This document shows positions 9,679 to 22,881 of a stretch of 64,000 nt of DNA, in pieces. The notes below the pieces were generated by a model. It worked only from the letters and a program-made list of their open reading frames with translations, had not been told where the DNA came from and ran no database searches. The translations under genes were made by a program, and so were the position numbers. Source of the stretch: Solibacteraceae bacterium (GTDB lineage: Bacteria > Acidobacteriota > Terriglobia > Bryobacterales > Bryobacteraceae); NCBI GenBank assembly GCA_026984795.1, contig JALSRK010000024.1, positions 248,001 through 312,000 of the forward strand, read 5' to 3'. Every line of letters begins with the position of its first letter. Position 1 is the first letter of the stretch.

Positions 9679-11874
9679 TTACCGTCCGCGACCGCCGCCG
9701 CGCGAAGGCCTGGTATCGCCTTTCGGACCGATGCGCCGCTCACCTCGCGGCACCGATGTCCCGCTCACCGTCGCCGCTCCGCAGGGGCCGAATTTCATCA
9801 CGAAAGCGCTCTGCGTGGCGCGGTGAACTCGCAGGAAGGCGTTCGGCGTGACGGGGAAGTCGGATGAGAGTGTTCCGCCGGCGATATAAATGTTGTCCAG
9901 GCCGTCCACGGCCACCGCCCAGGCGACCTCCGGGCCTGCCCCCCCGACGTATGATGAGCAGGTCAGGCCCGTGCCGTCCGGGGCGTTCGGATCCAGCCGC
10001 AGAAAGAAAGCGTCCACATTGCCGTTCGGCGTGTCGTCGAAGGAATCCCCGGTGATCGGGAAGTCCTCGGACATCGTGTAGCCGGCCATCACCAGCCCGC
10101 CGGCGCTGTCCAGGCCCATTTGATACGGAACGTCGCTGCCGGAACCGCCGACGTAGGTCGAGTACAGAAGCGCTTCACCCCCTGGCCTCGATGGGTCGAT
10201 CCGTGCCAGGAAGATATCCGCACTGCCACCGTTCGTCTTTTGGACCGCCGCCGCGGTCACGGGCAAGTCCTCCGACAGGGTGTACCCAAGCAGGTAATAG
10301 CCCCCGCCAGGCGCCGGCAAGATCGCCTGGGCCTCGTCCAAATCACTGCCGCCGAAGTAAGTCGAGTATCCCAGCGCTTCCAGTCCCGGCTTGGTCCAGT
10401 CGATGCGCGTGAGGAAGGCATCGCCCCCGCCGGCCAGCTTGCCCTGGTACGGAATTCCCTTGATCGGGAAGTCCTCGGAGGCGGTGAGGCCGGTCACGAA
10501 AACCGTACCGGGTGCGGCGATCGTCAGCCCGGAGATCCAATCGCCTTTCGTGCCTCCCAGATATGTCGAGTAGACCAGGCCCCCGGCCACTGTGTCGATG
10601 ATCGAGAAGAAGCCGTCCCCGTCGCCGCGGTTGAAAGCCTGCATCGTATCGCCGCTCATGGGAAAGTCTTCGGAGTCCGTGAAGCCTGCCACGTGAGCCC
10701 GTTGCTGGGAATCGACGGCAAGAGCGGTCGGCAGGTCCCGCTTGTCGCCTCCCAGATACGTGCTGAACAGCATCTTCGGGTCGGCGTCGATGTTGAACTT
10801 CACGACGAAGCCGTTCTGGCTCGCTGTGCTGGTGGAAAACTCTAACGCGTTGTCGGTGGTCGGAAAGTCCGGCGACAACGTCCAGCCCGTCAAATAGACA
10901 TTACCCGCGGCGTCGAACGTCATCGCCGTCGGAGCCTCGTCGCGTTTGCCGCCGAAGTAGCTGGAGTACACCAATCCCCGCCCGGCCCCGGCGAACGGAT
11001 CCAGAACCGTCAGGAACCCATTGAGCTGGCCCCCGCCCCCGGGCTGCAAACCCACCCCGTTGGTCGGGAAGTCGTCCGAGCCGCTCTCGCCGGCGATCCA
11101 GATCCGGCCCATGGCGTCTGCTGCCACCAGAAACGCCTCTTCCCGGAACGTGCCGCTGAAGTAGCTCGAGTACATCAGTACCGGATCGATCACCAGTTTC
11201 CTCGAAGCGTCATACGCGCCGATCTCGAAACGGACCCCGAACTCGCCGATCTTCACGAACCGTGCGGGCACCGGCGTCCTCCTCCCGCTCCCGTCCACCT
11301 GGTACGCATAAGGGCGCGTCAGCCGGAGGGCGGCGTTTCCTGCCCGCACTGCCAAGGCCCCGTCGGCTCCGATGGATATGCCGTCGGCTCCTTCGAACGA
11401 AAGCCGGATGGCACCCGGATCGGCTCCAGGCGCCACCACGAAGTCATGTTCCAGGCGCTGGCCGTTTCCGTAATAGACGACGTCTACTCCCGGGTACACA
11501 CCTTCGAAGCGTACCCGGCGGTAGTGCGGCACATTCGGTTTCCACTCTTGCGGGCGGTCGCCCAGGAAATACCCGCTCGACGACGCCATCCGGCCCATGC
11601 CTTCCACCGCCACCGGGGTAGAAGAGCCCGCCAACCGGAGCCGGATCCTGCCCGCCGGAGTCTGCACCATCGCTCCGTCGTCGGTGAGAAAGACCGCCGA
11701 GTATGGCGACCGGGAGACGAACCGCACCTGATCGCTCCACTGCCCCAGGTTCGGCTCGAAATGCAGGGGCAGTTCCTCGAAGAGTTCCCGGGCCCGCTGC
11801 TCCACCGCCGCTCCAGAAGCGACGCCGGAGGCCAGAAACATCGCCAGTGGCCAGATCGCGCTTCGCAGACTCAT
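9679..11874 (-). CDS. Secreted SBBP beta-propeller repeat protein
   Basis: The product has 731 residues with a Sec signal peptide (MSLRSAIWPLAMFLASGVAS). Residues 30-230 form the conserved N-terminal region that precedes such repeats in Acidobacteria (HFEPNLGQ... and GVDVVYYGNGQRLEHDF). Seven repeats of about 55-60 residues follow, each marked by SxDFP or SEDLP and then YSTYxGG, typical of the SBBP family that folds into beta propellers. The final 30 residues are Gly/Arg/Pro-rich and may not be structured. The role is probably extracellular binding or adhesion. Confidence 0.85.
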   Translation of the reverse strand: MSLRSAIWPLAMFLASGVASGAAVEQRARELFEELPLHFEPNLGQWSDQVRFVSRSPYSAVFLTDDGAMVQTPAGRIRLRLAGSSTPVAVEGMGRMASSSGYFLGDRPQEWKPNVPHYRRVRFEGVYPGVDVVYYGNGQRLEHDFVVAPGADPGAIRLSFEGADGISIGADGALAVRAGNAALRLTRPYAYQVDGSGRRTPVPARFVKIGEFGVRFEIGAYDASRKLVIDPVLMYSSYFSGTFREEAFLVAADAMGRIWIAGESGSDDFPTNGVGLQPGGGGQLNGFLTVLDPFAGAGRGLVYSSYFGGKRDEAPTAMTFDAAGNVYLTGWTLSPDFPTTDNALEFSTSTASQNGFVVKFNIDADPKMLFSTYLGGDKRDLPTALAVDSQQRAHVAGFTDSEDFPMSGDTMQAFNRGDGDGFFSIIDTVAGGLVYSTYLGGTKGDWISGLTIAAPGTVFVTGLTASEDFPIKGIPYQGKLAGGGDAFLTRIDWTKPGLEALGYSTYFGGSDLDEAQAILPAPGGGYYLLGYTLSEDLPVTAAAVQKTNGGSADIFLARIDPSRPGGEALLYSTYVGGSGSDVPYQMGLDSAGGLVMAGYTMSEDFPITGDSFDDTPNGNVDAFFLRLDPNAPDGTGLTCSSYVGGAGPEVAWAVAVDGLDNIYIAGGTLSSDFPVTPNAFLRVHRATQSAFVMKFGPCGAATVSGTSVPRGERRIGPKGDTRPSRGGGRGR

Positions 11875-16082: not shown

Positions 16083-17182
16083 GGCGTCCCCCCGGCCGCC
16101 ATCTCCAGCCGCGCCTCGAGGGCCGCAAATACCTCGTCGGGCGTCAGCGCCCGCATGCTGGCATCGATCTCCTTCCGCCGCTTGTACGAAGTTACTGCAC
16201 TCGGAGCCCGGAGGACCGCGAAGCTCTCCCCGTACGGCCCGTTCCGCTCCGGGTCCGTGGGGCCGAACAACGCCACCCCGGGTTTGCCCATCGCTGCGGC
16301 CAGATGCAACGGGCCGCTGTCGATCCCTACCACGGCGAGCGCCCGGCGCGTCGCGTCGATCAGGCCCGCCAGCGACGGGCAGTGCACCCGGCAGCCCTCG
16401 ACGCTCTCCAGCAGAGCCCGCTCTTGCGGCGGCCCGTTCAGCACCAGTGGCACTCCAAGCCGTTCTCTCAGGAGCCGCGCCAGCGCCGCGTAGTTCTCGA
16501 GCGGCCACTGCTTCGCCTTCCAGCCCCCCAGCGGTGAAGCCAGCACGAACTCTCCTCCCGGCAACTCCCCTTCCGGCCGCCCCGGCGGCAGGGGAAACGT
16601 GCGGAGGGTGTTACGGGCGCCCGCCGCCCTCGCCAGTTCCAGGTTCCTGTCCACCACGTGCCTACTAGTCACCCGGACCCGGTGGGAGTAGAACAGCGCC
16701 GCCGGTTTCTCCCGGAGCTGCGACTGGTGGAAGCCATAAATCGAGTGCGCTTTCGCCAGTGCCGCCACCAGCGCGGACTTGATCAGCCCCTGAAAATCGA
16801 CCACGGTGTCGAACGCTCTGCGCCGCAGCTCGCCTACTGCGCTCCAGACGCTCCGCAGCCGTCTCCGGTCGAACGGAATCACCTCGTCAACGTACGGGTT
16901 CCCCTCCAGCAGGATCGCCCACTTTGGGGCGATGAGCCAGGCAAGATGACACCCGGCCAGGCTTTGCTTGAGGCTGGCCGCCGCCGGAAGGGTGTGGATG
17001 ACGTCGCCCATGGAGCCGATCCGGACCACCAGCACCCGCCGGCTTCGTCCGGCCCCGGGGCCGTGTCTCCGGGGCCCGGCGCCTGTCGCCACGCCCCCAC
17101 GCCGGCCGCCAGGAGCCGACACGGAGACTCTCCGGCTCTCGTGCGGCCCGTAGCCCGGCTGGCTTGCGTGGGTGTCGTTCAT
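16079..17182 (-). CDS. waaC: Glycosyltransferase family 9, heptosyltransferase I-like
   Basis: The longest frame has 367 residues, but family similarity begins around residue 47 (VLVVRIGSMGDVIHTLPA). The preceding stretch is a Gly/Arg-rich, low-complexity sequence, so the GTG at 17035 (318 residues) may be the true start. The C-terminal domain has the GT9 donor site: VGIDSGPLHLAAAMGKPGVALFGPT. This pattern fits lipopolysaccharide heptosyltransferase I, acting on the inner core at the cytoplasmic membrane face. It lies between a degenerate HldE-like gene and the methyltransferase gene. Confidence 0.82.
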   Translation of the reverse strand: MNDTHASQPGYGPHESRRVSVSAPGGRRGGVATGAGPRRHGPGAGRSRRVLVVRIGSMGDVIHTLPAAASLKQSLAGCHLAWLIAPKWAILLEGNPYVDEVIPFDRRRLRSVWSAVGELRRRAFDTVVDFQGLIKSALVAALAKAHSIYGFHQSQLREKPAALFYSHRVRVTSRHVVDRNLELARAAGARNTLRTFPLPPGRPEGELPGGEFVLASPLGGWKAKQWPLENYAALARLLRERLGVPLVLNGPPQERALLESVEGCRVHCPSLAGLIDATRRALAVVGIDSGPLHLAAAMGKPGVALFGPTDPERNGPYGESFAVLRAPSAVTSYKRRKEIDASMRALTPDEVFAALEARLEMAAGGTP

Positions 17183-17216
17183 GGCCGATGGGAGCAGCTC
17201 GGACCCGGAGAGCTCC

Positions 17217-17597
17217 TCACGAGGCCGCCCGGCTTTGCACGCGGCGCATGAACTCTTCGGCCAGGCGTGCGTCGCCGGCCTGCATCGACTCCACCGCCTG
17301 CTCCGGCACGATCGCGAACAGCTCCTGAAGGCGGTCCGCCGGCAGCGTGGTGACCATCTCCACGCATTCGAGGGCGGCCACCAGCACCGCGCGGGCCTCC
17401 GCCTCCAGAATCGGCCGCGGCGGCGAAGTCACCACCACGCTGATCTTGCCGCTGCCCGCCGTCTTCCGAAGGCGGCGGGCATGGGCGGCCAGCAGCGGAT
17501 CGAAATACCCCACCGCCACTTTGCCGCCGGCCGCCACCCCGCGCTTCAGCCGCTCGGCCGCCGCCGGCCAGTCCACGATCTTGCTGCGAGTGTCCAC
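17217..17597 (-). CDS. Degenerate HldE/RfaE C-terminal-type nucleotidyltransferase domain
   Basis: The product has 126 residues from a GTG start. It follows the outline of the HldE adenylyltransferase domain: KIVDWPAAAERLKRGVAAG, then GKVAVGYFDPLLAAHARRL, RPILEAEARAVLVAALECVE and a final helix. The catalytic HxGH motif of the family (FDILHAGH) reads FDPLLAAH here, so the first His and the Gly are lost. The gene sits between two heptosyltransferases, where an ADP-heptose biosynthesis gene is expected, but it is probably inactive as an adenylyltransferase. It could be a scaffold or a decaying copy. Confidence 0.55.
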   Translation of the reverse strand: MDTRSKIVDWPAAAERLKRGVAAGGKVAVGYFDPLLAAHARRLRKTAGSGKISVVVTSPPRPILEAEARAVLVAALECVEMVTTLPADRLQELFAIVPEQAVESMQAGDARLAEEFMRRVQSRAAS

Positions 17598-17603
17598 GGT
17601 TTC

Positions 17604-18641
17604 CTATTTCAGCAGTTGGAGGGCAGCCTCCGCCACCCGGGCCGCTTCCACCCGAGTCATGCAGCGGTGATCGATCGGGCACTCCCGGAGCTTGCACGGG
17701 GCGCAGTCCACCGGCTCCCGGATGATCCTCGTGTGTTTGCCCAGAGGTCCGGTCGCCTCCGGGTCGGTCGAGCCGAAGACCGCCACTGTCGGGACCCCCA
17801 GCGCCGCCGCCACGTGCATGGCGCCGGAGTCGTTGGTCAGAAACAGGCGGCAGGCGGCGGCCAGTTCGATGAATTCGGCCAGCGACGTCCGTCCGGCGAA
17901 GTTGCGCACCGGGATCCTCGCCGCCCCCAGTTGCCGGGCCACCGCTTCACAGATCGCCCGCTCGCCCGCCGCGCCGAATATCGCCACGGCAAGTCCCGCT
18001 CGGCGGGCCGCCTGCGCCGCCGCTTCCGCGAACCGTTCCGGAAGCCAGCGCTTGGCGCTGCCGAAGGCAGCCCCGGGGCTGACGCCGATCACCCCTGATC
18101 CCAAACCTTCAGCCTCCAGCCTTGCCTGTCCCTGCACCCGGGCCTTCCCGGCCCCGTCCAGGCGGATCTCTTCCACCACCGGCAGCTCCTCGATCAGCCC
18201 GGCGCGCCGCAGCATCTCCAGGTAGTAGTAGCTTTCGTGACGCGGAATTTCACCGGGAGCCGGCCTCGGTATCGGATCGGTCAGCAGCGGCCCGCGCGCG
18301 TCTCGCCGGTAGCCGATCCGCCTTGGAATCCGCGCCAGCCACACCACCAGGGCCGCCTCGAAAGAGTTCGGCAGCAGAATGGCGGCGCCGAACCCCCCAG
18401 CGTGCAACGCCTGAGCGGCTTTCCACTTGCCTCGCCAGTCCCCCGCCCCCGGCCGCGCTTCGTACAACAGCACCCGGTCGGCAAACGGTTCCCGGCGGTA
18501 CAGATCCGCCACCCAGGGACGTGCCAGCACGGTAATCTCAGCCCGGGGGTGGCGCCGCCGCACCGCTTGCAGCGCCGGCAGCGACATTACCGCGTCGCCG
18601 ACCCAGTTCGTCGCCCGGATGAGAATGCGCTGCCACGCCAT
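17604..18641 (-). CDS. waaF: Glycosyltransferase family 9, heptosyltransferase II-like
   Basis: This 345-residue protein opens with RILIRATNWVGDAVMSLPAL, the WaaF acceptor-domain signature. It ends with the donor-binding FLTNDSGAMHVAAALGVPTVAVFGSTDP and the Cys-rich CAPCKLRECPIDHRCM tail typical of WaaF. It transfers the second heptose to the lipopolysaccharide inner core. The 5' coding segment 18590-18630 recurs almost unchanged at 19835-19875, the other side of a small insert, which suggests that an integration or duplication event hit the start of this gene. Confidence 0.9.
   Translation of the reverse strand: MAWQRILIRATNWVGDAVMSLPALQAVRRRHPRAEITVLARPWVADLYRREPFADRVLLYEARPGAGDWRGKWKAAQALHAGGFGAAILLPNSFEAALVVWLARIPRRIGYRRDARGPLLTDPIPRPAPGEIPRHESYYYLEMLRRAGLIEELPVVEEIRLDGAGKARVQGQARLEAEGLGSGVIGVSPGAAFGSAKRWLPERFAEAAAQAARRAGLAVAIFGAAGERAICEAVARQLGAARIPVRNFAGRTSLAEFIELAAACRLFLTNDSGAMHVAAALGVPTVAVFGSTDPEATGPLGKHTRIIREPVDCAPCKLRECPIDHRCMTRVEAARVAEAALQLLK
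18590..18630. repeat. 41-bp direct repeat, left copy (inside waaF 5' end)
   Basis: This segment matches 19835-19875 at 40 of 41 positions (G at 18623, A at 19868). It encodes the start of WaaF (RATNWVGDA on the - strand). The two copies are 1245 bp apart and bracket the TIR-like and HU-like genes. Confidence 0.85.
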
Positions 18642-18808
18642 GCCTGAAAGATCCTACCCATGAATCGTAACAGCGTAGCTGCCGCCCGCCTCTTAGGGTG
18701 AGGTGGAAGGGGACTGCGGACGGCGCCCGCTCGCCGCCCCCGTCTTCCTGGCCGGGGAACGGCCGGGGGAGTGCTGAACGGCGTGCGGCTACAAAACGGA
18801 ACCGGTCT

Positions 18809-19426
18809 TCATCTTCGCTGGCTCGACAGTTCCAGCCGGGCGTACTCTGATGCGACCACGACCAGCCCGCGGAATACGCTGGCCTCGAACATCGAAGTTG
18901 CGCCCCGATACTTCATCACCAGCGGCACAGCGCGCCAGCAGTGGGAGTAGACGCGGTACATCTGTGGCAGCGACGGCTGGTGCTTGCTCTTGACCAAGGC
19001 GTTGCTCAACTGCCGGAATACGCCTCTCACCCTGCCCCCGTGGATGTAGGGATCGGTACCGTCAAGGTCGCTCAGCGATTTCTGGAGCCGCCGCTCCTCG
19101 GCCTCGAAGACGAACCAGGTATGTCTGACTTTGCGATCCGTCTTCAGCCAGCCCAACAGGAGTCCCAGCTCGAACGGCATGTTGAACCGTGGCGTGCGCG
19201 GCGGTCTGGTGTCGAGCTGAACCCGGGAGAGATCGTGGATCGAGTACCGGCAGCTCGTCATCAGCCGGAAGATCCGGTCCAGACGCCTCTCGCCGCCCGG
19301 AATCTCGAGCGTGGCCCGGGGCGTCAGCCCGTATGCGCACAGCCCGGAGATAAAAGCCAGGTATAGTTTTTCGTACCGAGCATCGTAGGGAACGTTCAGA
19401 AAGACACTGTCGGGAGAGGTCGGCAC
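18809..19426 (-). CDS. TIR-like / nucleoside-hydrolase-like protein
   Basis: The product has 205 residues. The N-terminal 120 resemble a widespread family of TIR-like, Rossmann-type small proteins: FLNVPYDARYEKLYLAFISG, a glycine turn (GGERRLDRIFRLM), SCRYSIHDLSRVQLD and NMPFELGLLLGW. The Glu of FELG occupies the place of the catalytic Glu in TIR and deoxyribosyltransferase folds, so NAD or nucleotide cleavage is possible but unproven. The rest is helical and unassigned. It follows the HU-like gene at 34 bp on the same strand and lies inside a repeat-bounded insert, the context of a mobile defence or stress gene. Confidence 0.55.
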   Translation of the reverse strand: MPTSPDSVFLNVPYDARYEKLYLAFISGLCAYGLTPRATLEIPGGERRLDRIFRLMTSCRYSIHDLSRVQLDTRPPRTPRFNMPFELGLLLGWLKTDRKVRHTWFVFEAEERRLQKSLSDLDGTDPYIHGGRVRGVFRQLSNALVKSKHQPSLPQMYRVYSHCWRAVPLVMKYRGATSMFEASVFRGLVVVASEYARLELSSQRR

Positions 19427-19460
19427 AATTCTATCGGCGCCCCGCCGCGGGGAACAGGTC

Positions 19461-19733
19461 TCAACTAGCCTTGACGAACCTGACGAAACGGAAGCGCGGC
19501 TCCCGCTTGGCGAGGGTCTTCTTTGAGTTCCGCTTGGCCGAGGCCGGCCGTACGCAGGCCAGGCTCTTCACTCGCACCAAGCGGCCAAAGCCGGGGATGT
19601 TGTACTCGCCCGTCTTCCAGGAGCGCTCGGCTAGCGTGGAGAGGTCTTCGGCGACTTTTTTCGGCACGCCGAGAATCCGGGCCGCCTTCGCGGCGGACGG
19701 CAGCCCGGCGGTTACCTTCGCTTTGCGCTGCAT
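19461..19733 (-). CDS. HU/IHF-like DNA-binding protein (divergent)
   Basis: The product has 90 basic residues. A helical N-terminus (SAAKAARILGVPKKVAEDLS) is followed by the HU-type core: LAERSWKTGEYNIPGFGRLVRVKS, where GEF-x-IPGFG-K-L is the HU beta-sheet signature, and a Lys/Arg-rich tail in place of the DNA-binding arm and final helix. The arm does not keep the canonical RNP motif, so DNA contacts may differ from HU. It precedes the TIR-like gene in a probable two-gene transcript and could be its regulator or partner. Confidence 0.6.
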   Translation of the reverse strand: MQRKAKVTAGLPSAAKAARILGVPKKVAEDLSTLAERSWKTGEYNIPGFGRLVRVKSLACVRPASAKRNSKKTLAKREPRFRFVRFVKAS

Positions 19734-19834
19734 TCGCCTGCCTTCAGGATGTCACCATGGCGGTCGAGCTGTCAACGGCGGCGGCTTTTAAGCCCTTCCT
19801 ACGCATGGGGTTGGCGGTCCCGCTCTGGAAACCG

Positions 19835-19875
19835 CCGCGTCGCCGACCCAGTTCGTCGCCCGGATGAAAATGCGC
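19835..19875. repeat. 41-bp direct repeat, right copy (orphan waaF 5' fragment)
   Basis: On the - strand this copy sits in a frame beginning GTG-GAG-CCG and encoding RIFIRATNWVGDA before diverging and terminating. The residues before the repeat differ from those of the intact waaF, as expected if this is the displaced original 5' end or a truncated second copy. Confidence 0.8.
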
Positions 19876-19983
19876 CCCGGCTCCACCGCCTCAGCTCCCA
19901 CCGGACGATAGTACCAGCCCCCGCCGCCCCCCACCCTTTTTCGTGCAACCTTCTGCGCCTTGGTACAATCAATCTAGGCATGA

Positions 19984-20049
19984 GGGGAACGCTCCCCATC
20001 GAATCTATGGATCCGGTAGCGGCTCGCTGAGCCCCCTCTCTGCTACCGG
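19984..20049 (+). promoter_or_regulatory. Structured leader before the glucosaminidase-like gene
   Basis: Two hairpins follow the TACAAT element. The first is GGGG-AACGCT-CCCC (19984-19997). The second is CCGGTAGC (20013-20020) paired with GCTACCGG (20042-20049), and its loop contains a nested GGCTC-GCT-GAGCC hairpin. The structure lies 64 bp before the start codon. It could be a cis-regulatory RNA, but I cannot match it to a known riboswitch class. Confidence 0.4.
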
Positions 20050-20112
20050 TGCATTTTCGAGTATCGACACGGAATACGCATTCTCTGGTTAGACGAGGGT
20101 TGGAAGAACGCC

Positions 20113-20613
20113 GTGCTGAGGAAACTACTGCTTCGCGGTTTCGTGTTGTGTCTCGGCGTATTTCTCACGCCGGAGATGATGCATCCGGAACAGCACGACA
20201 TTAGCAAGCTGACCTACCACGACGACCCGCGGTACCTCAGGCTGAAACAGTACCTAGAAGAGCGGGGCAGCCCGGCGGCCCAGTGGGCGGCGGACTTCAT
20301 CGCCGCCGCTGACCGCTACGGCCTGGACTGGCGGCTGCTGCCCGCAATCGCTGTCATCGAGTCCGGCGCCGGACAGCGGTACAAGAACAACAACATCTTC
20401 GGCTGGGACTCTTGCCGGGTGCGGTTCCCGACCGTCCGCGACGGAATTCACCGGGTGGCCTACCGGTTGGCTACGTCGCGGCTATATCGAAACAAGGATC
20501 TCGACGGGATCCTGCGGACCTACAATCCATACCCCCACTATCCGCGCCGGATCAAGTACGTGATGCGCCGCCTTGGGCCGGCAGCCCTGAGCGGTCAAGC
20601 CATTGCGAACTAG
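20113..20613 (+). CDS. Exported peptidoglycan hydrolase-like protein (glucosaminidase/lysozyme-like fold)
   Basis: The product has 166 residues and starts with GTG 20113. A hydrophobic signal sequence (MLRKLLLRGFVLCLGVFL) is followed by residues 55-155 with DFIAAADRYGLDWRLLPAIAVIESGAGQ and NNNIFGW. That pattern is seen in bacterial beta-N-acetylglucosaminidases and small lytic transglycosylases, with Glu of IESGAG as the likely acid. DGIHRVAYRL and the TYNPYPHYPRRIKYVM tail are family features. It would trim cell-wall glycan in the periplasm. A structured leader lies upstream. Confidence 0.75.
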   Translation: MLRKLLLRGFVLCLGVFLTPEMMHPEQHDISKLTYHDDPRYLRLKQYLEERGSPAAQWAADFIAAADRYGLDWRLLPAIAVIESGAGQRYKNNNIFGWDSCRVRFPTVRDGIHRVAYRLATSRLYRNKDLDGILRTYNPYPHYPRRIKYVMRRLGPAALSGQAIAN

Positions 20614-20631
20614 GGGTCCTCTTGGCCGCCT

Positions 20632-20778
20632 TCACTCCATCAACTGGATCGCCATGTAAAGGCCACCGAACACCAGCACCGACACTACGGCCACCGCGGC
20701 CCACTTGAAGAGCCGCTCAGCCTTCGTGCTCTGGACCTCCTCATCTCGCTTCATTTGTTCGTCGAGGCTGTCGAACAT
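20632..20778 (-). CDS. 48-residue single-pass membrane protein
   Basis: This frame starts at ATG 20778 after an excellent ribosome binding site (GGGAGGAGGTGT on the - strand). The protein begins MFDSLDEQMKRDEEVQSTKA, a charged cytoplasmic segment. It continues with one hydrophobic helix of about 20 residues and ends QLME. The strong translation signal and the amphipathic-plus-helix design argue that it is real. Function unknown. It is convergent with the peptidoglycan hydrolase gene. Confidence 0.65.
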   Translation of the reverse strand: MFDSLDEQMKRDEEVQSTKAERLFKWAAVAVVSVLVFGGLYMAIQLME

Positions 20779-20915
20779 GGGAAGTGACACCTCCTCCCTT
20801 CCTTCGGCGCTCTGCGCCGTCCCGACTCCTCCACTGGGTCACTTCTATTCTACGGATGCCGGCCGCCAAAATCACGCAAAATCGACATGCCTGGTCCCGG
20901 AGTCCCGCCCGGCAG

Positions 20916-21884
20916 TCATCCTGCTCCTCCGCTGGAGCGCCGCCGCCACCCCACTTCTTCCAGACATTCCGCCGCCGCCACGACTGTATTGACGTGAATC
21001 CGGACGGTATCTTCCAGCTTCAGCGCGTAGCCCCCGGCCAGCGTCACCGCCACCCCCACACGGTGGCTCAAAGCAGACTCGAGCACAAGGCGGTCCCGCT
21101 CCTTCAGCCCTTCGATCGTCAGCCCCAGGCCACCGAGCTGGTCTTCATAATATGGGTCCGCCCCCGCTACGTAGACCATCACGTCCGGCCTGAAACCGGT
21201 GACCGCCGCCAGGAGTGGATCGTGGAGCCGCTTCAAGTACTCCTCGTCTCCTATGCCGTCCGGCAAGTGGATGTCGACCGAGGAGGGCGGCTTCTCGGCC
21301 GGGTAGTTCGCATACTGGTGGATCGATAGCGTGAAGACGTCAGGATCGCCAGCGAAGATCACCGCGGTCCCATTGCCCTGGTGCACGTCGCAGTCCACGA
21401 TGAGCGCTCTCTCGATCCGGCCTCGATGCATCAGGCTGCGGACGGCGACAGCAATGTCATTGATCGCGCAGAAGCCTTCTCCGTGGCCGGGAAAGGCATG
21501 ATGAAAACCTCCTCCCAAATTGAACCCGACGCCGTCGGCCAGCGCCAGTTCTCCGGCGAGGGTGGTCCCGCCGGCGGCGAGGATGTAAGCATTGACCATC
21601 TGCCGCGAATACGGCACTTCGAGAGTGCGGATCTCGTGAAAGTCGAGCGTTCCGGTCCGCAGCCGCTCGATCCAGCCGGGCTCATGCACGAGCAGCAGAT
21701 CCTCGAGGGGCGCCGGCTCCGGCTCGAGGAAGTCTCCTTCCCGGGCGATGCCCTCCCTGAGCAGGCGCTCGCGGATCAGCCGGTACTTGTGGGACGGGAA
21801 AACATGGGAGCCGAAGTTCAGGTCATAGCCCTCGTGGTAGATCACGCGGAATGGCAGGGCGCGGCTAGCGGATGGAATCTCCAT
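20916..21884 (-). CDS. Histone-deacetylase-family (AcuC-like) deacetylase
   Basis: This 322-residue zinc hydrolase of the arginase/deacetylase fold shows [20 protein letters not shown] (the catalytic His pair), the Zn ligands in [10 protein letters not shown] and the distal Asp in [17 protein letters not shown]. Bacterial members remove acetyl groups from lysines, as AcuC does for acetyl-CoA synthetase, or from polyamines. The start codon lies 20 bp inside the 3' end of pta, so acetyl-phosphate metabolism and deacetylation are translationally linked here. The substrate is not determined by the sequence. Confidence 0.85.
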
Positions 21885-22881
21885 TCGAGACAGCCTCGAG
21901 AGCGGTCACCACCGCCACCCCGTAGATATCTTCCGCCGAGCAGCCCCGCGAGAGTTCGTTGGCCGGCTTCGCCAGGCCTTGCAAGAACGGACCCAGCGCC
22001 GCCGCTCCCGCCAGCCGCTCCACCAGTTTGTAGCCGATGTTGGCCGCCGCCAGGTCAGGAAAGATCAGCGTATTCGCCCGTCCGGCCACCGTCGAGCCGG
22101 GAGCCTTCGACCGCCCCACCGCCTCCACCAGCGCCGCGTCGGCCTGCAGCTCGCCATCGACGTTCAGCTCCGGCGCCCGCTCCCGGACGATGCGCAAGGC
22201 CTCGACGACCTGGTCGACTTCGCGGTGCCTGCCGCTGCCCTTCGTCGAAAACGAGAGCAGCGCCACCACGGGTTCGGTCCGCAGCAATCGCCGCGTGCTC
22301 GCCGCCGTGGCAATTGCGATCTCGGCCAACTGCACCGGCGTCGGCTGTATCACAATCGAGCAATCGGCGAAGCTCAGCAAACCACGGCACCCGAACCGGC
22401 GGTCCGGCAGGGCCATGATGAAGACGCTGGAAAGCGTCCGCACCTCCGGCCGGGTGCCGATCACGTGCAGCATCGCCCGCAGCGTCTCCCGCGACGTGTA
22501 GTGGGCGCCCCCGACGAAGCCGTCGGCGTCGCCTGCCGCCACCCTCAGGAGCGCGAAATAGAGCGGATGCCGGGCGATCTCCAGCGCCTCCTGCTCGGTC
22601 ACCCCCTTGGCCCGCCGCCGCTCCAGATAGATCGCCGCGTATTTGCGGAGAGCGTTGGAGTCCTCGGGACGCGCCACCGTCACACCGGCTCCGCCGCCAC
22701 CCCCGACCAGGATGGGATCGGCCAGCTCCTCCCGCGCCAGCCGCCCGGCCGCCTCGACCACCCGAGGGTCTTCGCCTTCCGGGAATACGAGGCGGGGCCG
22801 CTTGCGGGACCGGCGGAGCTGCTCGGCTTGCGAGGCGACGAACTCGATGGCGGCTTCCGGCACCGGCATGGAATCTCTCAT
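21865..22881 (-). CDS. pta: Phosphate acetyltransferase
   Basis: This 338-residue enzyme interconverts acetyl-CoA and acetyl phosphate. It has the compact single-domain PTA form, with [17 protein letters not shown] at the start, [20 protein letters not shown], and the [20 protein letters not shown] and [18 protein letters not shown] motifs of the CoA site. No acetate kinase gene is next to it. It overlaps the downstream deacetylase gene by 20 bp. Together they could set the level of acetyl phosphate, the main non-enzymatic protein acetylating agent, and reverse its effects. Confidence 0.93.

Follow-up and report, generated by a model that had tools for sequence, protein, structure and literature searches.

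The 5′ end of waaF occurs twice in the window (the whole 64,000-nucleotide stretch of Solibacteraceae DNA analysed here, from contig JALSRK010000024.1 of assembly GCA_026984795.1), and the two copies, a 41-bp direct repeat, bracket a TIR-like gene and the gene of a small HU-like partner. One copy is the start of the intact waaF gene, and the other is an orphan with a start codon of its own. DNA that carried the gene pair together with its own waaF start may have integrated by one crossover in the 5′ end of waaF, with a recombinase acting in trans or with the insert as a remnant; we give this reading about an even chance. The features are collected in Table 1.

Table 1. Features of the waaF locus (positions in the window).
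Feature	Position	Strand	Basis or remark
waaF (lipopolysaccharide heptosyltransferase II), intact; presumed regenerated start ATG 18639-18641	17604..18641	-	ORF; PF01075; TIGR02195
Repeat copy 1	18590..18630	-	waaF codons 5-17 plus one base each side; candidate attachment core
Presumed new waaF leader: AGGA Shine-Dalgarno-like motif, ATG plus three codons, intergenic DNA to TIR-like gene	18631..18808	-	
TIR/deoxyribosyltransferase-fold protein, 205 aa, GTG start	18809..19426	-	ORF; AlphaFold2 model; fold matches
HU-like small basic partner, 90 aa, 34 nt upstream of TIR-like gene	19461..19733	-	44% identity to L002 partner
Insert end without accepted gene, between partner and orphan repeat	19734..19834	-	
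Repeat copy 2	19835..19875	-	orphan (putatively displaced) waaF 5′ end, 1 mismatch
Orphan leader: GTG (19884-19886) plus codons in waaF register; GGAG motif upstream	19876..19886	-	
Glucosaminidase-like (lytic-type) gene next to orphan waaF start	20113-20613	divergent	

The repeat, which the initial annotation had assigned to the 5′ end of waaF with a spacing of 1245 bp, was recovered at the same coordinates. Its copies are 41 nt long, are identical at 40 of 41 positions and lie 1245 nt apart from start to start. When the whole window was scanned for direct repeats with mismatches allowed, this pair (score 38) was the only one to score at least 24, and the best scores in three block-shuffled control windows were 16, 17 and 21. 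The 22-nt core of the repeat has two exact sites in the 5.23-Mb assembly (77 contigs, with the window in one of 448,705 bases), both of them here, and no third copy was detected across that assembly at up to 3 mismatches. Furthermore, BLAST of positions 18575-20115 against the same assembly gave nothing else better than E 0.155, and the 31-nt repeat core was absent from IMG/VR. The similarity between the copies ends sharply, with 36 of 100 positions identical upstream and 14 of 50 downstream. Both the direct-repeat bracket, unique in the window and in the genome, and the unrelated edges of the insert count for integration.

The product of waaF was recognised as heptosyltransferase II by NCBIfam (TIGR02195, E 5.5e-70) and by Pfam (PF01075). 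The repeat takes in codons 5-17 of waaF whole, with the last base of codon 4 ahead of them and the first base of codon 18 behind; it marks the 5′ (start) end of the gene, and both copies translate as starts. The minus-strand sequence is ATG GCG TGG CAG CGC ATT CTC in the waaF copy (protein M-A-W-Q-RILIRATNWVGDA) and GTG GAG CCG GGG CGC ATT TTC in the orphan copy (protein V-E-P-G-RIFIRATNWVGDA). Each start codon stands four codons ahead of the common Arg, and each is preceded by a Shine-Dalgarno-like 4-mer, a combination found at 0.0053 of positions on the minus strand when counted after the fact. Among related waaF loci, 76 of 80 had a recognisable motif, and in 27 of these 76 a start codon lies exactly at this register, which is the modal one. 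Outside the 41 bp, the leaders and the DNA after the repeat are unrelated between the two copies. Because the start codons share a register and both have Shine-Dalgarno-like motifs, yet the leaders are unrelated, the orphan has the look of a genuine waaF start that was displaced, and the simplest reading of the sequence is that of two real waaF starts, one of them displaced. Since the argument from the start register was made after the sequence had been seen, it is support and not proof. The intact waaF start and the orphan with different preceding residues, as the initial annotation had described them, correspond to M-A-W-Q and V-E-P-G under unrelated leaders. waaF has a new in-frame N-terminus in M-A-W-Q ahead of the shared core, if, as we infer, it is the newer of the two.

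From this arrangement we infer the crossover, its direction and the recombinase as follows. DNA of ∼1.2 kb that carried the HU-like/TIR-like pair and a 41-bp waaF start of its own would have entered the 5′ end of the native waaF by one crossover in the core. The incoming molecule would have been circular, with its waaF start as the second one. This would have stranded the old leader and start (the orphan, 19835-19886) beside the divergent lytic-type gene. waaF would have gained a new leader, a start codon and three new residues before the common core, so that it was kept in frame. Since the insert is without a recombinase, the enzyme would have acted in trans, or the insert would be the remnant of a larger element.

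The apparently genuine but displaced start of the orphan supports integration in a 5′ end with a regenerated N-terminus, a layout published for elements at dusA and prfC. According to excerpts of PMC8409611, the element at the dusA start (IMEVchUSA3) integrates via an integrase and supplies a new promoter and an altered N-terminus, and SXT at prfC is cited as doing likewise; elements of the SXT/R391 family measure 79-110 kb (excerpts of PMC8409611 and PMC4542580). As far as these excerpts describe such elements, the window insert resembles the dusA element and SXT in lying in the 5′ end of a coding gene, with a putative new leader, an altered N-terminus and the frame kept (PMC8409611; PMC4542580). 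It is unlike them in being ∼1.2 kb long, with two genes, no integrase and no recurrence. As to a new promoter of the dusA type, a sigma-70 consensus scan of 18500-20150 returned 0 sites, hence none of the sigma-70 type in either leader. A CIME is defined, in an excerpt of PMC5704250, as an element that retains its att sites after the loss of its genes for integration and transfer. Like a CIME, the insert has candidate attL/attR-like 41-bp repeats at both ends and no integrase or transfer genes, its two small genes being without family match; unlike a CIME, it has no related element with the same core in its own genome or in IMG/VR. If the integration reading is true, this is a very small, integrase-free insert that rebuilt its target gene's start, in a pared-down version of the strategy known from larger elements.

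The TIR-like and HU-like ORFs were taken as the sole genes between the copies, since the other listed ORFs overlap them in other frames; here the ORF list agrees with the initial annotation, as it does, together with Pfam, on the absence of an integrase from the insert. The genome has 5 Phage_integrase hits, all on other contigs, and the 22-nt core lay beside none of these 5 genes at up to 3 mismatches. No match was found for either window protein in Pfam, NCBIfam or PADLOC, and nothing in 17000-22000 reached the gathering score of an Rfam family. A tRNA as integration target was rejected, there being no tRNA in the window; 20 pair-bearing regions held one tRNA in all by ARAGORN, about 7.5 kb from the pair. 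Terminal inverted repeats of at least 12 nt, as in an insertion sequence or transposon, were not found at the insert ends: 0 of 14 inverted pairs in 17500-21500 have arms at both ends. The glucosaminidase-like protein has matches in 66 of the 81 genomes of the family set, its own included, and its gene stood beside waaF at 0 of 80 loci and, in a separate check, at 0 of 29 other waaF loci.

The initial annotation had read the bracket as integration at a coding end, and this reading stood in part. In its favour are the sharp bracket, the regenerated and displaced starts and the patchy cargo, the best TIR-like match among 60 other genomes (67%) being in a different family; against it are the lack of recurrence at waaF, of brackets elsewhere, of an empty site and of a sigma-70 promoter in either leader, and the integrase-free insert speaks against a self-mobile element. 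The TIR-like protein had matches in 9 of the 61 genomes in the relatives set and in 56 of the 399 in the class set; both counts take in the genome of the window as well as copies that are distant or broken. Nearly all of the closest named WaaF relatives come from Bryobacteraceae, Bryobacterales or other Acidobacteria records. One WaaF, 60% identical to that of the window, belongs to a record titled Bordetella parapertussis (L137), probably a mislabelled metagenome bin. An empty-site comparison was abandoned, as the closest WaaF found, 65% identical, gave no alignable empty site. Recurrent occupation of the waaF start, looked for in relatives, was not borne out: a displaced start or the two genes were seen at 0 of 80 named waaF loci, checked over up to 6 kb of upstream DNA (less for some).

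Brackets were likewise sought at other pair-bearing regions. None of 19 regions of 13-20 kb reached a score of 20, as against 38 for the window, where the 41 nt were recovered; 2 of 13 control regions reached 20. With flanks of ∼1.5 kb (43 loci, 41 of them with enough flank, the window included; L014 and L015 overlap), L062 (66 nt) and L009 (36 nt) alone exceeded 20 among the 40 non-window loci. Since the same kind of pair occurs elsewhere without repeat brackets, the repeat looks like the scar of a single event, not a property of the element. The 66-nt direct repeat around the TIR-like gene of L062 (G209:C21) may be a dispersed intergenic repeat. Within-genus DNA comparison, by match tables, covered three other pair-bearing loci. 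At the G182 locus the two flanks match different contigs in several genomes (e.g. G326, G332 and G474, among the matches listed), so that gene order may be broken where this pair lies. Next to the pair of L193, a short stretch (10560-10785) recurs in many genomes of its genus, and ARAGORN found no tRNA in it.

The same topology would arise without any site-specific recombinase if a circular fragment that carried the pair along with a short stretch resembling waaF had recombined, in the Campbell manner, by ordinary short homology. Such an event would account for the missing integrase, for the lack of other occupied waaF sites and for the lack of brackets elsewhere. Counting against it, 41 bp is short for efficient homologous recombination; moreover, a donor with a near-identical waaF core should share the leader too, but the leaders are unrelated. 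We regard it as fairly unlikely, but our preference for a recombinase in trans over simple recombination by short homology is not a firm one. The one-off nature of what was observed would also fit a templated patch, in which waaF already had the pair beside it and break repair copied 41 bp of the gene to a place upstream, so that the orphan never was a start. No mobile element is required for this, but a GTG with a Shine-Dalgarno-like motif at the modal waaF register is unexpected of a random patch (a point judged post hoc), and we hold the patch to be unlikely.

That both ends resemble real waaF starts would equally be expected of a tandem waaF duplication, the first copy of which was lost bar its start and into which the pair came later or in between. 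The 40/41 identity alongside unrelated leaders speaks against this, as does the lack of positional waaF similarity past the repeat (14/50), and such a remnant seems very improbable. We give still less credence to an assembly artefact that joined two templates at their common core. The assembly consists of 77 contigs, and the search for an independent contig from the same organism gave none. Even a chimera, however, presupposes templates that have the core next to each end of the insert, and the copies differ by one base and are both within the 448,705-base contig.

The TIR-like protein was modelled by AlphaFold2 from the window sequence and 11 viral-contig relatives, with a pLDDT of 83.1 for the best model and of 60.5-73.6 for the other four. 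Foldseek gave no match in the PDB at E 0.001 or better; its ranking placed a plant TIR first and a SPARTA TIR-APAZ chain second, and flavodoxin-type chains were also listed. VIA-align returned Z 10.9 with DNPH1 (rmsd 2.7, 121 aligned), Z 10.2 with a SPARTA TIR chain (rmsd 4.4, 155 aligned) and Z 9.1 with a deoxyribosyltransferase (rmsd 3.1, 124 aligned). Across DNPH1, SPARTA TIR, plant TIR and deoxyribosyltransferases the model thus scores Z 9-11, and these differences are too small to choose between DNPH1, TIR and deoxyribosyltransferase. Residues N11, D65, N82, E86, D120 and D125 are invariant, D65 and E86 in both alignments (25 and 12 sequences), and the placement of these two is compatible, by numbering only, with the mutated D62 and E88 of deoxyribosyltransferase entries. 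In its predicted fold and in having an invariant Asp and Glu at compatible places the protein is like TIR, nucleoside deoxyribosyltransferase and DNPH1. It is unlike them in an added helical C-terminal part (residues 153-204) and in its own FLN-x-PYD and RFNMPFELG signatures, and unlike known TIR families in that no Pfam, NCBIfam or PADLOC family fits it. A profile search of the family against PDB sequences gave nothing convincing (at best phosphopantetheine adenylyltransferase, with E 0.014). Run on 25 members, Pfam gave one weak CAP12-PCTIR_TIR match (E 0.015), and distant members matched at E 0.0069, 0.11 and 0.29. Judged from fold, invariant residues and gene order only, the cargo is most likely an N-glycosidase of the TIR/deoxyribosyltransferase fold that acts on NAD or nucleotides, with a small DNA-binding partner that would trigger or restrain its activity. 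One genome has two TIR-like copies about 19 kb apart (G093:C1:1377986-1378534 and 1396987-1397535).

Among the 43 loci read, 33 form a close group (L001-L004, L010 and L048-L075) whose sequences are without the NCPFD signature. In 31 of the 33, the TIR-like gene is preceded on the same strand by a small basic ORF with a related N-terminal motif (by eye), the end of which falls between 80 nt past the TIR-like start and 76 nt short of it. L061 has the partner-type sequence within a longer frame, and in L056 no partner was recognisable upstream of the TIR-like gene. The consensus over 26 partners includes TPxPTxEExAxxLGVSK. Pfam Bac_DNA_binding was matched by 1 of the 26 aligned partners (E 1.2e-11), which we attribute to L002. 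The L002 partner (G037), a clear HU relative, has matches among HU and IHF chains. With 44% identity to this protein over 86 aligned positions, the window partner is, by this resemblance, homologous to an HU-family protein. Unlike HU/IHF, the window partner on its own has no Pfam match, Bac_DNA_binding included, and deviates from the HU signature in its arm region; no convincing PDB match was found either. In 6 of 296 other genomes of the phylum it has weak matches (E 1e-4 to 1e-3), of which four (L267, L269, L270 and L271) read as plain HU proteins and two otherwise. A single-sequence model of the HU-like protein was set aside (pLDDT 46). The partner at L064:2225-2581 seems to have an Xre-like helix-turn-helix ahead of the usual motif (by eye), hinting that the partner may be a DNA-binding regulator.

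Distant TIR-like relatives (22-30% identity over the alignment) occur in viral contigs and on plasmids, the latter in 17 records, all from alphaproteobacterial genera, with the copies annotated as hypothetical protein wherever the gene is annotated. Nine small ORFs directly upstream of such relatives were scanned, 8 from viral contigs and 1 from a relative's genome, and 6 of the 9 matched DUF2188 (E 8.7e-7 to 3e-24). These stand directly upstream of the TIR-like gene in the viral contigs L181, L182, L173, L169 and L171 and in L014; L180 and L184 were added by eye. The partner type varies, being HTH-like, HU-like or, in distant relatives, DUF2188. A literature search on DUF2188 with TIR found no description of a recurring DUF2188/TIR-like pair, and searches on DUF2188 alone and on TIR-like proteins with Acidobacteria or defence gave no title or abstract opening that names the pair; the excerpt of PMC10214605 holds nothing bearing on an HU-like/TIR-like pair. 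The cargo is a two-gene family with no description in the libraries and literature searched, and is apparently undescribed. The pair is found in Acidobacteriota, with distant relatives on alphaproteobacterial plasmids and viral contigs, and is a more general lead than the repeat scar. That HU-, HTH- and DUF2188-partnered TIR/deoxyribosyltransferase-fold enzymes make up a partner-swapping effector system, which would spread as an integrase-free minimal cassette via host gene starts and give the host a new start, is a speculation that we consider distinctly doubtful.

The tests above confirmed the repeat and partly supported the integration reading. The anti-phage role that the initial annotation had suggested received no backing, with no PADLOC match for either protein and no clear enrichment among neighbour families. 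Among six TIR-like relatives, PADLOC gave one weak TIR-effector match (L002, E 0.028). For neighbours of 19 pairs, 108 of 117 listed ORFs were used (7 own-genome and 2 overlong dropped), and for controls 74 of 86 (9 own-genome and 3 overlong dropped); no enrichment in defence genes was evident among the families shown, although a weak one may exist. The 25 families shown, out of 48 for the pair neighbours, were for the most part kinase-related models with 2 members each, and a single member had an AbiTii match in Pfam; control neighbours gave 7 families. A defence role for the pair is possible, and plausible from the predicted fold alone. With regard to Thoeris, no ThsA-type family was among the 7 found for 49 window ORFs. 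Of these 49 ORFs, one has a match to RtcR-type regulators (E 7.7e-109) and one to viperin models (E 3.5e-21); each may be an ordinary relative of its family.
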